From Psychroflexus planctonicus (lineage in GTDB: Bacteria > Bacteroidota > Bacteroidia > Flavobacteriales > Flavobacteriaceae): a DNA stretch of 64,000 nucleotides. Below the pieces are notes generated by a model that did no database searches, was not told the DNA's origin, and saw nothing but the letters and a program-made list of their open reading frames with translations. The DNA is taken from assembly GCF_014640195.1 (NCBI RefSeq), contig NZ_BMGM01000006.1:124001-188000 (forward strand), read 5' to 3'. A program made the translations under genes and the position numbers. Positions 18,650 to 62,929 of the stretch are shown piece after piece (within the stretch, counting starts at the first letter, position 1; each line of letters starts with the position of its first letter).

Positions 18650-18722
18650 CACGGGTTGAGAGGCTCGAACTCCCGACACCTGGTTTTGGAGACCAGTGCT
18701 CTACCAACTGAGCTAAACCCGT
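18650..18722 (-). tRNA. tRNA-Trp (CCA)
   Basis: A 73-nt cloverleaf on the minus strand: acceptor arms ACGGGTT/AACCCGT, D-arm TAGCTCAGTTGGTAGAG, anticodon loop CTCCAAA with anticodon CCA, and a T-arm with GTTCGAG. The 3' CCA is not encoded. It sits between tuf and secE, the usual bacterial position. Confidence 0.97.
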
Positions 18723-18727
18723 AAATA

Positions 18728-18761
18728 CTAATTGAGGCATCTTTAAAGACACCTCAATTAG
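18728..18761 (-). other. Hairpin between tuf and tRNA-Trp
   Basis: On the minus strand 14-nt arms (18748-18761 and 18728-18741) pair fully with two G-U pairs and close a 6-nt TTTAAA loop. It stands 5 nt before the 5' end of tRNA-Trp. It may guide processing of the tuf-tRNA-secE transcript or partly terminate after tuf. Confidence 0.6.
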
Positions 18762-18780
18762 CTATTTAACTTCTAAATTA

Positions 18781-19968
18781 TTAATCTAAAATTTCAGTAA
18801 CCTGACCTGCACCTACAGTACGTCCACCTTCACGGATAGCGAAACGAAGACCTACATTCATTGCAATAGGCTGTAACAATTCAACGTGAATAGTTAAGTT
18901 ATCACCCGGCATTACCATTTCAACTCCATCAGGCAAGCTAATTGTACCTGTTACGTCTGTTGTTCTAACATAGAACTGTGGACGATAGTTGTTATGGAAT
19001 GGAGTGTGACGCCCACCTTCTTCTTTTTTCAAGATATATACCTCAGCTTTAAATTTAGCGTGTGGAGTTACAGAACCTGGTTTAGTAATTACCATACCAC
19101 GAGAAATCTGAGACTTTTCAACACCTCTTAATAAAATACCTACGTTATCACCAGCTTCTCCACGATCCAAAATCTTACGGAACATTTCAACACCAGTAAT
19201 AGTTGATTTTAATTTCTCAGCTCCCATACCAATGATTTCTACCGGATCTCCAGTATTCGCAACACCAGTTTCAATACGACCAGTTGCTACAGTACCACGA
19301 CCGGTAATAGAGAATACATCTTCGATAGGCATCAAGAAATCTTTCTCAACATCACGTTGTGGTAATTCAATCCAGCTATCTACAGCATTCATTAATTCCA
19401 TAACAGTATCTCCCCATTTAGCATCACCTTCTAGCGCACCTAAGGCAGAACCTGAAATTACAGGACCGTTATCACCATCATATTCGTAGAAAGTTAACAA
19501 ATCTCTAACTTCCATTTCTACTAATTCTAATAATTCTTCATCGTCAACTAAGTCAACTTTATTTAAGAAAACAACAATTCTTGGAATACCAACTTGGCGA
19601 CCCAATAAGATGTGCTCTCTAGTTTGTGGCATAGGACCATCAGTAGCAGCAACTACTAAGATAGCTCCATCCATTTGCGCAGCACCTGTAACCATGTTTT
19701 TTACGTAATCCGCGTGACCTGGACAGTCAACGTGAGCGTAGTGACGTGATTCAGTTGAGTACTCAACATGAGAAGAGTTAATGGTAATACCACGCTCTTT
19801 TTCTTCTGGAGCGTTGTCAATTTGATCAAAAGCACTAGCTTCTGAATACCCTTTATCTGCAAGTACTTTAGTAATTGCAGCTGTTAAAGTTGTTTTACCG
19901 TGGTCAACGTGTCCAATTGTACCTATGTTAAGGTGCGGTTTGGAACGATCAAAATTTTCCTTTGCCAT
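18781..19968 (-). CDS. tuf: Elongation factor Tu
   Basis: EF-Tu delivers aminoacyl-tRNA to the ribosome, 395 residues. The G domain shows [10 protein letters not shown] (residues 19-28), the switch I ERGITI block, DCPGHADY (near 80) and NKVDLVDD (near 135). Domains II and III follow, with [13 protein letters not shown] and the C-terminal [17 protein letters not shown]. It is the only tuf gene in the window, downstream of four tRNA genes and upstream of tRNA-Trp-secE-nusG. Confidence 0.99.
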
Positions 19969-20065
19969 AATTAATTATTTAATCTTAGTTATATATTAGT
20001 GTTTAATTTTAAACAACAATTGAAGTCATCAAGGCAGAAACTTCCCTGTGACTTTTTCTCACTAG

Positions 20066-20137
20066 AGCCAACGACGAGAATTGAACTCGTGACCTCTTCC
20101 TTACCAAGGAAGCGCTCTACCCCTGAGCTACGTCGGC
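20066..20137 (-). tRNA. tRNA-Thr (GGT)
   Basis: 72 nt, minus strand. The acceptor arms GCCGACG/CGTTGGC pair with one G-U pair. The anticodon stem CTTCC/GGAAG encloses the loop TTGGTAA with anticodon GGT. No encoded CCA. It is the last of four tRNA genes before tuf. Confidence 0.96.
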
Positions 20138-20173
20138 AGAACAAAAAGCAAACTTCAATCCTGCTAAACTTAG

Positions 20174-20246
20174 AGCGGGAGACCGGGTTCGAACCGGCGA
20201 CATTCAGCTTGGAAGGCTGACGCTCTACCAACTGAGCTACTCCCGC
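20174..20246 (-). tRNA. tRNA-Gly (TCC)
   Basis: 73 nt, minus strand. Acceptor arms GCGGGAG/CTCCCGC; anticodon loop CTTCCAA with anticodon TCC between TCAGC and GCTGA; T-arm with GGTTCGAACC. It is 36 nt from tRNA-Thr(GGT) in the same transcript. Confidence 0.96.
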
Positions 20247-20282
20247 ATTTTACTACACCCTATTATGATGTTTGCTATGATG

Positions 20283-20365
20283 TGGGGAGAGCAGGATTCG
20301 AACCTGCGAAGGTGAAAACCAACAGATTTACAGTCTGTCCTCGTTGGCCGCTTGAGTATCTCCCC
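20283..20365 (-). tRNA. tRNA-Tyr (GTA)
   Basis: 83 nt with the long variable arm expected of a bacterial tRNA-Tyr. Acceptor arms GGGGAGA/TCTCCCC; anticodon loop CTGTAAA with anticodon GTA; T-arm with GGTTCGAATCC. Minus strand. Confidence 0.96.
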
Positions 20366-20389
20366 TAAAAGAACGTTTTCGAAAAATAG

Positions 20390-20463
20390 AGCCGATGGAG
20401 GGACTCGAACCCACGACCTGCTGATTACAAATCAGCTGCTCTAGCCAGCTGAGCTACATCGGC
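20390..20463 (-). tRNA. tRNA-Thr (TGT)
   Basis: 74 nt, minus strand. Acceptor arms GCCGATG/CATCGGC; anticodon loop TTGTAAT with anticodon TGT between CTGAT and CAGC-side pairing; T-arm with GGTTCGAGTCC. It is the first gene of the tRNA-tuf-secE-rpl-rpo cluster and lies 27 nt after the predicted promoter start point. Confidence 0.96.
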
Positions 20464-35837: not shown

Positions 35838-37325
35838 ATGAAAAAAATCTTTCTGTTTTACTTTGTATGCCTAATTTCACTTAACAACTTTGCTCAAGAA
35901 ATTAAAGGAAAAATAATTGATAGTGAGCTGCAAGAACCTGTTCCGTTTGTCAACATTCAACTAAGCGAAAACAAAGGGACTATTTCCAATAACGAAGGCA
36001 TTTTTCGATTAAATATTGATGGTTATGAAGCTTCACATTTAGTTACTTTTTCTTCTATGGGATTTGAAGAATTTCAGCTAAGTATTGAAGAACTTCAACA
36101 AATCAATACCATTGTTCTAAAGCCTTCAGACGAGTTGCTTGATCAAGTAGTTGTAACCAACAAGCAATTTACCGCCTTAGAAATTATTCAAAAATTCAAC
36201 GAAAATAGAGTTAAAAATCATCAACTTGGAGAAAACAGATTTCGACTTTTTCATAGAAAACGAAATACATTTATACCAGAACAAATGGTTTTTCAACTCA
36301 AAAAAGCCAGCAACTTAAAAAAGAAAGAGCGTAAACGCATCAACAAATCCTTAGCTGAATTTGATGAAGAAATCTCAGGAAGCCAAAGTCTTGGATTTTA
36401 CGAAAGCTTACGTGATTTATATACCTTAAGTGATACCATTCTGTTTGATCTTAAAAAGAAAATTTACTTGGCCGATTCGGATGCAAAAAACGATGTTGAT
36501 GAATACCAAGAGCAAGCCATTAGAAAGTTGTTTAAAAATTTTGATTCTGAACATACCTTTAAAATTAAAATCGGAATTTTAAAAGTAGCCGATTCTGTTG
36601 AAGTGAACTCTTCAGATGATAACATAAGTGTTGGTAATACTGATGATGAAGACGAACATCAAATAAAACCTGACTTTTCTGTAACAGAATATCCTAAAAT
36701 TGCCTACAGCGAAGAAAATTCAATTCCAGATGTACTTTCAGAAACCAAGTATTTTGATTATGAGCTGCAAGAACCAACTATTGTAAACGGCAGACCGCAA
36801 TACGTCATACACTTTGAACCTGGCAGAAGAAAAGGAAAGCACAAAGGCAGATTATACATCGATCAAGAAGATTTTGCGCTTACGCAGATTGATTATCAAC
36901 TGGCTGAAGGAAAGAAAACAAACAGTGTAAATTTAAAATTTTTAGGTGTAAAATTCAATGGATATAAAGACAGCAACAGCATCCGTTTCAAGAAAACAGA
37001 AAATGGAAATTACATTCCGTATTACGCTAACGCTACCCGAGCAGCTTATGTATTTTTAAGAAGAACATTAACCTTTATTGAAAATAATCCCAATCGAAGT
37101 GAACGTATAAAATTCAAACTCAGATTTATTATTGAAACCAAAAATGAAGTGACAGACGAATGGGTTTTATTAGAACATGAAAATATAGCAGATAAGCCAA
37201 TAACTTCGAATAACTTCAACACTTCCCTAGAAATTGAAACCATCGAAACTTACAGTCCAGAAATCTGGAAAGATTATCCCGTTTTTGAAGCTACAAAAGA
37301 AATGAAGGAGTATCATTTAAAATAG
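35838..37325 (+). CDS. Carboxypeptidase-regulatory-like domain protein
   Basis: A 495-residue exported protein. A signal peptide (residues 1-19, ending NNFAQ) is followed by a CarboxypepD_reg-like beta-sandwich (residues 20-95: IKGKIIDSELQEPVPFVNIQL, GTISNNEGIF, VTFSSMGFE), the domain found at the N-terminus of SusC-type receptors. The rest (about 100-495) is a Bacteroidota-specific region with a DUF-like beta-rich end (LYIDQEDFALTQIDYQL, FLGVKFNGYKDSNSIRFKK). There is no TonB plug or barrel, so it is probably a periplasmic or outer-membrane lipid-free protein of unknown role. Confidence 0.8.
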   Translation: MKKIFLFYFVCLISLNNFAQEIKGKIIDSELQEPVPFVNIQLSENKGTISNNEGIFRLNIDGYEASHLVTFSSMGFEEFQLSIEELQQINTIVLKPSDELLDQVVVTNKQFTALEIIQKFNENRVKNHQLGENRFRLFHRKRNTFIPEQMVFQLKKASNLKKKERKRINKSLAEFDEEISGSQSLGFYESLRDLYTLSDTILFDLKKKIYLADSDAKNDVDEYQEQAIRKLFKNFDSEHTFKIKIGILKVADSVEVNSSDDNISVGNTDDEDEHQIKPDFSVTEYPKIAYSEENSIPDVLSETKYFDYELQEPTIVNGRPQYVIHFEPGRRKGKHKGRLYIDQEDFALTQIDYQLAEGKKTNSVNLKFLGVKFNGYKDSNSIRFKKTENGNYIPYYANATRAAYVFLRRTLTFIENNPNRSERIKFKLRFIIETKNEVTDEWVLLEHENIADKPITSNNFNTSLEIETIETYSPEIWKDYPVFEATKEMKEYHLK

Positions 37326-42717: not shown

Positions 42718-42837
42718 GCGTTCCTTACCCAAAAAACCAAACTTTAGACTTTGTCTTTTTGGGTAAGTCAGGCTTTCCGCTATATCTTTTAAACCCAAAA
42801 TCCAGGTTTAAAAGGATGCCGCTGCAATCCTTAACGC
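42718..42837 (-). ncRNA. Structured intergenic element, copy C, inside the trp operon
   Basis: Read on the minus strand: outer helix GCGTT/AACGC (42833-42837 and 42718-42722), inner helix AGG/CCT, conserved loop GATTGCAGCG and GGAAAG, and an arm CTTTTAAACC/GGGTTTAAAAG. Where copies A and B have a 5-nt bulge, this copy carries a 12-bp hairpin CTTACCCAAAAA/TTTTTGGGTAAG (42724-42767). It lies 38 nt after the trpE stop codon. Confidence 0.6.
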
Positions 42838-42867
42838 AAAATCCATTTTCAAAATAAAAATTGACCT

Positions 42868-62638: not shown

Positions 62639-62668
62639 AAACAGCTCTTTAGGAGCTGTTTTTTTTTG
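62639..62668 (+). terminator. Terminator of the M42 peptidase gene
   Basis: A 7-bp stem ACAGCTC/GAGCTGT (62641-62659), extended by two A-T pairs and with a 5-nt loop, is followed by a run of Ts. It lies 25 nt after the stop codon. Confidence 0.85.
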
Positions 62669-62672
62669 AGAC

Positions 62673-62740
62673 AAAAAAAAACGCCTGCTCGGGAGAGCAG
62701 GCGAATTAACTAACCAATCTATTATGAAAAACTTCATCCA
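62673..62740 (-). ncRNA. Candidate small RNA, copy 1
   Basis: On the minus strand: a 5' hairpin ATGAA-GTTT-TTCAT, a conserved unpaired stretch AATAGATTGGTTAGTTAATT, then an intrinsic terminator with a perfect 9-bp stem CGCCTGCTC/GAGCAGGCG (62682-62703) and a run of nine Us. The predicted start near 62740 follows a -7 box. The result is about 68 nt. No protein is encoded on this strand; no homologous gene is near. Confidence 0.75.
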
Positions 62741-62743
62741 CGG

Positions 62744-62751
62744 CAAATATA
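62744..62751 (-). promoter_or_regulatory. -7 box of small RNA copy 1
   Basis: The minus strand reads TATATTTG, an exact TAnnTTTG match. No -33 TTTG is seen at the expected distance. The distance to the conserved part is like that of copy 2. Confidence 0.6.
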
Positions 62752-62822
62752 TTACTTTTCTTTAATGCAGTGTAGAATTTATTCGAATTAACATTTTTTT
62801 ATAGGCTCTTAAAATTAAAGTC

Positions 62823-62892
62823 AAAAAAAAAACCTGCTCACTATAAAAATGAGCAGGCAAATTAACTAACCAATCTATTATGAAAATTTCAT
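62823..62892 (-). ncRNA. Candidate small RNA, copy 2
   Basis: Same plan as copy 1: 5' hairpin ATGAA-ATT-TTCAT, the identical unpaired 20-nt stretch, and a terminator with an 8-bp stem CCTGCTCA/TGAGCAGG (62833-62857) and ten Us. About 70 nt. The loop of the terminator (9 nt) and the flanks differ from copy 1, whereas the unpaired stretch and the inner stem are unchanged, which argues for selection. Confidence 0.78.
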
Positions 62893-62895
62893 ATA

Positions 62896-62929
62896 CAAAT
62901 GTAGGCTATATTCTACAGTAAACAACAAA
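62896..62929 (-). promoter_or_regulatory. Promoter of small RNA copy 2
   Basis: The minus strand has -33 TTTG (62926-62929), 22 nt of spacing, and -7 TACATTTG (62896-62903), both matching the Bacteroidota consensus. The predicted start is near 62892. Confidence 0.7.

Follow-up and report, generated by a model that had tools for sequence, protein, structure and literature searches.

MicA and RybB of enterobacteria are short, sigma-E-dependent and Hfq-dependent small RNAs (sRNAs) whose targets are known. To our knowledge, few trans-acting sRNAs have been characterised in the Flavobacteriaceae, a major group in the sea and in soil. In Bacteroides, according to the accessible text of PMC11697453, the sRNA FopS pairs at the start codon and thereby represses SusC translation, and RbpB acts as its antagonist. 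In Flavobacterium psychrophilum, Rfp18 pairs through its third stem-loop with metalloprotease mRNAs, and Rfp11 has an SM6 promoter, of the ECF type with CGT as its -10 box, and is one of the structured sRNAs that other species also conserve; the promoters of this bacterium carry TAnnTTTG at positions -12 to -5 (all as described in the accessible text of PMC9723704).

The locus considered here occupies positions 62673-62929, on the minus strand, of the window, i.e., the whole 64,000-nt stretch of the Psychroflexus planctonicus genome that was analysed. The first-pass annotation had described two units about 150 bp apart, each made of a TAnnTTTG box, a 5' hairpin, an identical 20-mer, and a terminator, and all of these parts are read directly in the sequence, with a measured spacing of 153-156 bp. 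Copy 1 has a predicted transcript of ~67 nt (62673-62739, from sequence, promoter position rule, and fold) that is preceded by the housekeeping -7 box TATATTTG (TAnnTTTG, 62744-62751) and comprises the folded 5' hairpin ATGAA/TTCAT (62724-62737; arms 62737-62733 and 62728-62724), the conserved 20-nt core AATAGATTGGTTAGTTAATT (62704-62723), which is the candidate pairing region, and an intrinsic terminator with a 9-bp stem and nine U (62673-62703; arms CGCCTGCTC at 62703-62695 and GAGCAGGCG at 62690-62682, nine Ts at 62681-62673), read from sequence and fold and from covariation in the genus. Copy 2, with a predicted transcript of ~70 nt (62823-62892, from sequence and fold), follows the housekeeping -7 box TACATTTG (TAnnTTTG, 62896-62903) and, 22 nt ahead of this box, a possible -33 element TTTG at 62929-62926, where the annotation had placed it; its 5' hairpin ATGAA/TTCAT (62880-62892; arms 62892-62888 and 62884-62880), the same 20-mer (62860-62879), and an intrinsic terminator with ten U (62823-62857; arms CCTGCTCA at 62857-62850 and TGAGCAGG at 62840-62833, ten Ts at 62832-62823) come in the same order. 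The predicted 5' ends near 62739 and 62891-62892 follow from placing TAnnTTTG at -12 to -5, and these starts put the hairpin at the very 5' end of both RNAs. The two copies share 27 identical nt, from TTTTCAT through the 20-mer, and the terminator stem core CCTGCTC/GAGCAGG, and the contrast of constant parts with differing flanks also holds, in that the flanks diverge between the paralogues and the core and the layout are kept.

Both units are almost certainly real sRNA genes, as each shows the marks of an intergenic sRNA gene, namely its own promoter, no frame, an intrinsic terminator, and conservation. At the level of sequence, the gene anatomy, the conservation, the synteny, the covarying terminator, the lack of a conserved frame, and the promoter classes are established. 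The pair would thus encode two paralogous RNAs of ~65-70 nt, with leftward transcription starting at housekeeping promoters and stopping at intrinsic terminators, and both would belong to one orthologous sRNA gene of the Flavobacteriaceae that usually has a LuxE-like gene on one side and a convergent tyrS gene on the other and that would have been multiplied in Psychroflexus. The 5' hairpin may protect the 5' end of the RNA, and the stretch AUAGAUUGGUUAGUUA would pair with mRNAs near their start codons, blocking translation. Taken as a whole, this reading of the pair as paralogous trans-acting sRNAs of a conserved flavobacterial gene is probably correct; the balance also favours, to the same degree, action by base-pairing in trans, while it is doubtful that outer-membrane mRNAs are the main targets.

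In the window's own genome, a search for the 20-mer with at most three mismatches returns the two window copies, one two-mismatch copy on contig C8, and one three-mismatch site without the layout; the window pair is not a chance match. The C8 site is a second tandem pair with the same layout and different terminators, convergent with tyrS, so that the genome holds four copies in total. Across the genus (Psychroflexus and relatives), the layout of 5' part and core is found in 26 of 27 genomes, the only one without it being 52% complete; copies were counted by layout rather than by a raw motif tally because the reversed control of the two-mismatch tally also matches in most genomes. Tandem pairs recur in several genomes of the genus (e.g., L017, L179, L298, L309), and one genome (G014) carries several dispersed copies. 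The suspicion that the copies are parts of a longer mobile repeat, unconserved elsewhere, is contradicted by the differing flanks of the paralogues, their syntenic position, and the absence of the exact 20-nt word from the viral contigs searched. Carriage by phages was dropped on the last of these grounds.

Beyond the genus, a scan for TTTCATAWTAGATTGGTTAG in one genome per species yields 89 stretches, and the 80 listed contain 85 copies. These 80 come from Psychroflexus, Mesohalobacter, Mesonia, Gramella/Christiangramia, Salegentibacter, Gillisia, Zunongwangia, Haloflavibacter, other Flavobacteriaceae (the family to which we take the matched genera to belong), and one Bacteroidia metagenome-assembled genome (MAG), with the sole exception of a match inside a frame of a Clostridium MAG (L189) that is probably due to chance. 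Directly after TTTCATAWTAGATTGGTTAG, the bases of TTA are kept at 98, 100, and 92%, and the next position falls to 60%. The covariance-model search proposed in the first-pass annotation reaches 36 of the 199 genomes of the family at E 0.01 or better, including forms that carry UUGGUUGGUUAGUU, to which the core has drifted in many genera. The same core also occurs in other genera downstream of genes that we presume, from their C-terminal sequences, to be ClpB-like and HSP20-like (L092, L096), and further paralogous seats may therefore exist.

The promoters fall into two classes. Elements of other genera are preceded by TGTAA and, after 15-19 nt, by CGAC or CGTC, an ECF-sigma-type box. This box, which was defined after reading part of these sequences, so that its count is not blind, is present in 22 of 30 tyrS-linked elements and in 43 of 83 named elements, compared with 0.015 and 0.05 in shuffled upstream regions and with an expectation of ~0.003 per region from genome stretches; the tyrS-linked set is taken without L314 (own genome) and L322 and includes three elements with two mismatches, the named set comprises those of the 85 copies with enough upstream DNA, and the two sets overlap at least in L318 and L321. 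The spacer measures 17 nt in 18 of the 22 tyrS-linked elements bearing the box. By group, the box precedes 42 of the 49 named elements outside the genus (L189 being counted there) and 1 of the 34 inside, and TAnnTTTG shows the reverse distribution, with 26 of 34 inside the genus and none of 49 outside (1.8 of 83 when shuffled). All four copies of the window's genome have the TAnnTTTG housekeeping box, and no ECF-type CGAC/CGTC box is found before the window copies. Six genus copies, perhaps transitional, keep CGTC, CGAC, or CGTA at most 60 nt upstream. At the Gramella, Salegentibacter, Gillisia, and Zunongwangia loci, CGAC lies further up, with more sequence before the core and often an extra hairpin, and the Gillisia copies mostly fall outside the definition of the ECF-type box. 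Moreover, the own genome contains an ECF sigma gene of the GFO_1088 family (NCBIfam; L285, 19283-19798, minus strand) that has a TGTAAC-N16-CGTC box 20 nt ahead of its start; this is consistent with autoregulation and speaks for the ECF reading.

Since the promoter of the element looks, by its sequence, ECF-sigma-dependent in most genera checked, the element was likely, in its ancestral role, a post-transcriptional regulator within an envelope- or nutrient-stress sigma regulon; for the majority of the genus Psychroflexus, control would have moved to the housekeeping sigma factor and the gene dosage would have been raised. A more far-reaching proposal, offered tentatively, is that the family constitutes the RNA arm of a widespread ECF-sigma envelope response of the Flavobacteriaceae, whose sigma factor may be of the GFO_1088/PG0214 type, and that in most of Psychroflexus the RNA escaped this control, acquiring a housekeeping promoter and undergoing tandem amplification. 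Such an arm would resemble MicA and RybB in the short RNA, the strong terminator, and the ECF sigma control (judged by the promoter type of the relatives), but would work without Hfq or RbpB; MicA and RybB are Hfq-dependent, whereas the own genome lacks Hfq. The sRNA family is widely conserved, is reached by no Rfam entry, and combines an unusual promoter replacement with amplification in the genus. A family that has no Rfam match at the cut-off, whose place is fixed by synteny in many genera, and that outside Psychroflexus mostly bears a recognisable stress-type promoter makes approachable both the action of sRNAs in bacteria without Hfq and the change of sigma factor of an sRNA whose core stays fixed.

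The search for targets gives a modest signal. In the own genome, 13 of 699 start regions reach pairing energies with the core of less than -12 kcal/mol, compared with 5.8 ± 2.8 for 60 shuffled seeds, two of which reach 13, and the coding-region control gives 8 vs 7.2; in a second genome (G111), 14 of 638 start regions do so vs 8.2 ± 3.4, with 7 of 100 shuffled seeds yielding as many and a coding control of 8 vs 9.5. The strongest 20 start regions out-pair 58 of the 60 shuffled seeds in the own genome and 98 of the 100 in G111, and, averaged over the full set of start regions, pairing is no different from that of shuffled seeds in either genome. The 7-mer complements of the core show no enrichment in the 699 start regions, and the idea of finding targets by the complement of the conserved stretch at start codons gained nothing from the search for the long complement together with ATG, which finds 18 sites vs 26 for the reversed control, three of the 18 being the sRNA genes themselves. 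Target energies are uncorrelated between the members of 118 orthologue pairs in two genomes (Spearman 0.12, p 0.19), and no conserved target emerges; the best shared one was rejected, since it falls within the last part of the coding sequence of an upstream gene, apparently for an ABC ATPase, and conserved coding sequence explains the match. The top candidates in the own genome include a secreted protein with weak, sub-cutoff matches to outer-membrane barrels, a PAP2 phosphatase, and LpxC-FabZ. The idea that the RNA targets TonB-receptor mRNAs at their start codons was likewise abandoned, as the start regions of 18 receptors, a few of which are probably miscalled, show ordinary energies and no stronger pairing as a group. 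The plan of trans-acting sRNAs put forward in the first-pass annotation stands as far as it concerns a conserved, intrinsically terminated family in which the core is constant and the flanks vary, and base-pairing is argued from this anatomy because the target signals are weak, unenriched, and unconserved.

Within the window, a gene with a CarboxypepD_reg-like domain (35838-37325, plus strand) starts with AATCTATTATGAAAAA, a 16-nt complement of the 5' half of the sRNA that spans its start codon. The other exact AATCTATTATGAAAA sites inspected in the genus are, among the matches listed, nearly all sRNA copies, and one exact site falls in another start region (L114).

The same target data bear on the strongest rival of base-pairing, in which the constant core would be the landing site of an RNA-binding protein that the RNA titrates, the tandem copies raising the dosage. 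A core that is nearly invariant across genera, complements in targets that are neither enriched nor conserved, and multiple copies with the same core would all suit such a sponge, but the core drifts to UUGGUUGGUUAGUU in many genera, and two known classes of partner are missing: neither Hfq (Pfam) nor RRM_1 (PF00076) is found in the own genome, with a positive control for RRM_1 in Bacteroides ihuae, and there is therefore no known chaperone of these two kinds. Titration of a protein is considered unlikely, and base-pairing in trans is retained as the preferred mode of action.

A flavobacterial branch of the FopS family is a still less probable identity for these RNAs. The FopS model (RF04319) matches copy 1 over its full length and ranks this match first of 13 in the own genome, although at 24.8 bits vs a cut-off of 56; over 13 genomes, the model finds nothing above the cut-off, lists a known sRNA copy in two, and ranks it first in one, and at E 1 or better it does not match the elements of five loci from other genera (L084, L086, L087, L088, L097). 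The gapped FopS-like words UUUUUCAU..UAGAUU..GGUUA give shuffle p values of 0.002-0.06 in three type 1 sequences, and the R1/R1' seed of FopS gives 0.002-0.013 in the Gramella and window forms, 0.04-0.06 in Mesonia, and 0.3-0.4 in type 2, where the resemblance is thus missing. The element is like FopS in being multicopy, in its intrinsic terminator, U-rich 5' part, and similar order of short words, and in the letters UUUUUCAU, which are complementary to a AUGAAAAA start; the complement of the 5' half, which reads as at the start of the gene at 35838, can be counted on the same side. In contrast, the window RNAs have a 5' hairpin, whereas the 5' end of FopS is single-stranded, and the frequent seat between LuxE and tyrS and the ECF-type promoter in most genera checked set the element apart. 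Membership was rejected because the score lies far under the cut-off and the RRM_1 partner protein is absent, the top rank in the own genome not being repeated across the 13 genomes or the five other-genera elements. Sub-threshold FopS-like matches of 43.9 and 36.4 bits also occur at L250 (1501-1569), from another family of the order, and at L251 (1501-1579), from another family of the class; the former seems to lie opposite the start of a divergent frame.

The comparison with Rfp18, raised in the first-pass annotation, extends to its being a conserved flavobacterial sRNA and finds no support beyond that, since the accessible description has it pairing through a third stem-loop, and two hairpins are present here. 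By the same kind of comparison, of descriptions, Rfp11 is the better lead: its ECF-type promoter recalls the CGAC/CGTC boxes of most relatives checked, which the window copies lack. A literature search by the core letters, by sRNA with tyrS and Flavobacteriaceae, and by Rfp11, covering texts other than supplementary tables, returned no description of the element.

The neighbourhood of the element is also conserved. Upstream of the window pair, on the same strand, lies the 3' part of a LuxE-like gene (PF04443; 63118-64000, running past the window end), identified by domain scan and synteny, and downstream, convergent with the pair, an M42 aminopeptidase gene (PF05343; 61543-62613, plus strand; domain scan) that occupies the position where many relatives have tyrS; LuxE, M42 peptidase, and tyrosyl-tRNA synthetase are all identified by domain scans among the neighbour genes of the window's genome. 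The M42 peptidase gene has a terminator-like hairpin on the plus strand at 62641-62670, AACAGCTCTTTAGGAGCTG followed by Ts, that adjoins the end of copy 1, and both transcripts would therefore meet head to head. Among 108 distinct elements (the 85 named copies and 23 further family matches, with L084, L086, and L087 counted once), 61 are flanked by both genes, the LuxE-like one upstream in the same orientation and tyrS downstream and convergent, and 18 more adjoin tyrS and 13 more LuxE; specifically, 16 have tyrS only, 10 LuxE only, 13 neither, and three are undecided, while five lie at a sequence end with the other side beyond the DNA (three with LuxE, two with tyrS). In the own genome, the window pair retained the LuxE side and the C8 pair the tyrS side, as if the ancestral LuxE-tyrS interval had broken in two and each part had kept RNA copies. 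A scan anchored on tyrS in 60 genera, chosen independently of the element, finds the exact 10-mer core UUGGUUAGUU in 18 of them, counting the own genome, at a distance of at most 320 nt and on the strand opposite to tyrS, compared with a mean of 0.08 and a maximum of 6 genera for 200 shuffled motifs and 2 for the reversed motif. Allowing one mismatch, the count rises to 29 of 60 genera, one of them (L322) probably by chance, and is uninformative alone because the reversed motif reaches 25; in the other 31, the core with at most one mismatch is not found beside tyrS.

Most elements lie on the strand of the LuxE-like gene, some 60-260 nt past its end, and this arrangement would also be expected if they belonged to the LuxE-like transcript, as conserved terminators or portions of its 3' UTR, and acted only in cis. 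This account is very improbable, given the promoter box right before the 5' part in most elements, the many Psychroflexus copies that reside elsewhere, tandem pairs included, and the 16 elements that adjoin tyrS without LuxE.

The structures are those expected of independent sRNAs. Both hairpins form in all five copies folded, with z-scores from -2.7 to -7.0. Three of the five leave the core open or almost open; the two window copies, in their minimum-energy folds, pair some of the core with bases at the U-run or past it, and in the predicted folds of 102 elements, upstream DNA included, the core is only partly open (unpaired 0.30-0.64). Among 25 genus sequences, 12 of the 13 base pairs of the terminator helix vary on both sides, and the whole structure has a covariation score of 0.445 vs 0.216 when shuffled and at most 0.157 in slid controls, with 91.8% of cells paired vs 79.0% and 41-55%, respectively. 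The 5' hairpin shows no covariation within the genus because its nearly invariant stem hardly varies there; in other genera, the 5' stems differ from ATGAA/TTCAT. That this 5' part (ATGAAG...) encodes a short leader peptide, as could be suggested by the AGGATGAAG start and by MKFFHNRLVS, a frame of ten codons that 21 of 51 elements share, is largely refuted and practically negligible, as the T-run of the 5' loop varies in length and shifts the frame, so that none is kept and 21 different would-be peptides result among the 51 elements with that 5' part, and many elements outside the genus have GTGAAA at that place.

Lastly, no Rfam family matches the locus of the sRNA pair, or the sRNA loci of nine relatives, at its cut-off, and the matches above the cut-off in the whole window are five tRNAs and one Flavo-1 RNA. 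The latter (RF01705), a flavobacterial RNA motif that does not match the sRNA locus, lies at 42762-42842 on the minus strand with 60.5 bits, and the five tRNA genes are located at 18650-20463 on the minus strand, four of them within 20066-20463.
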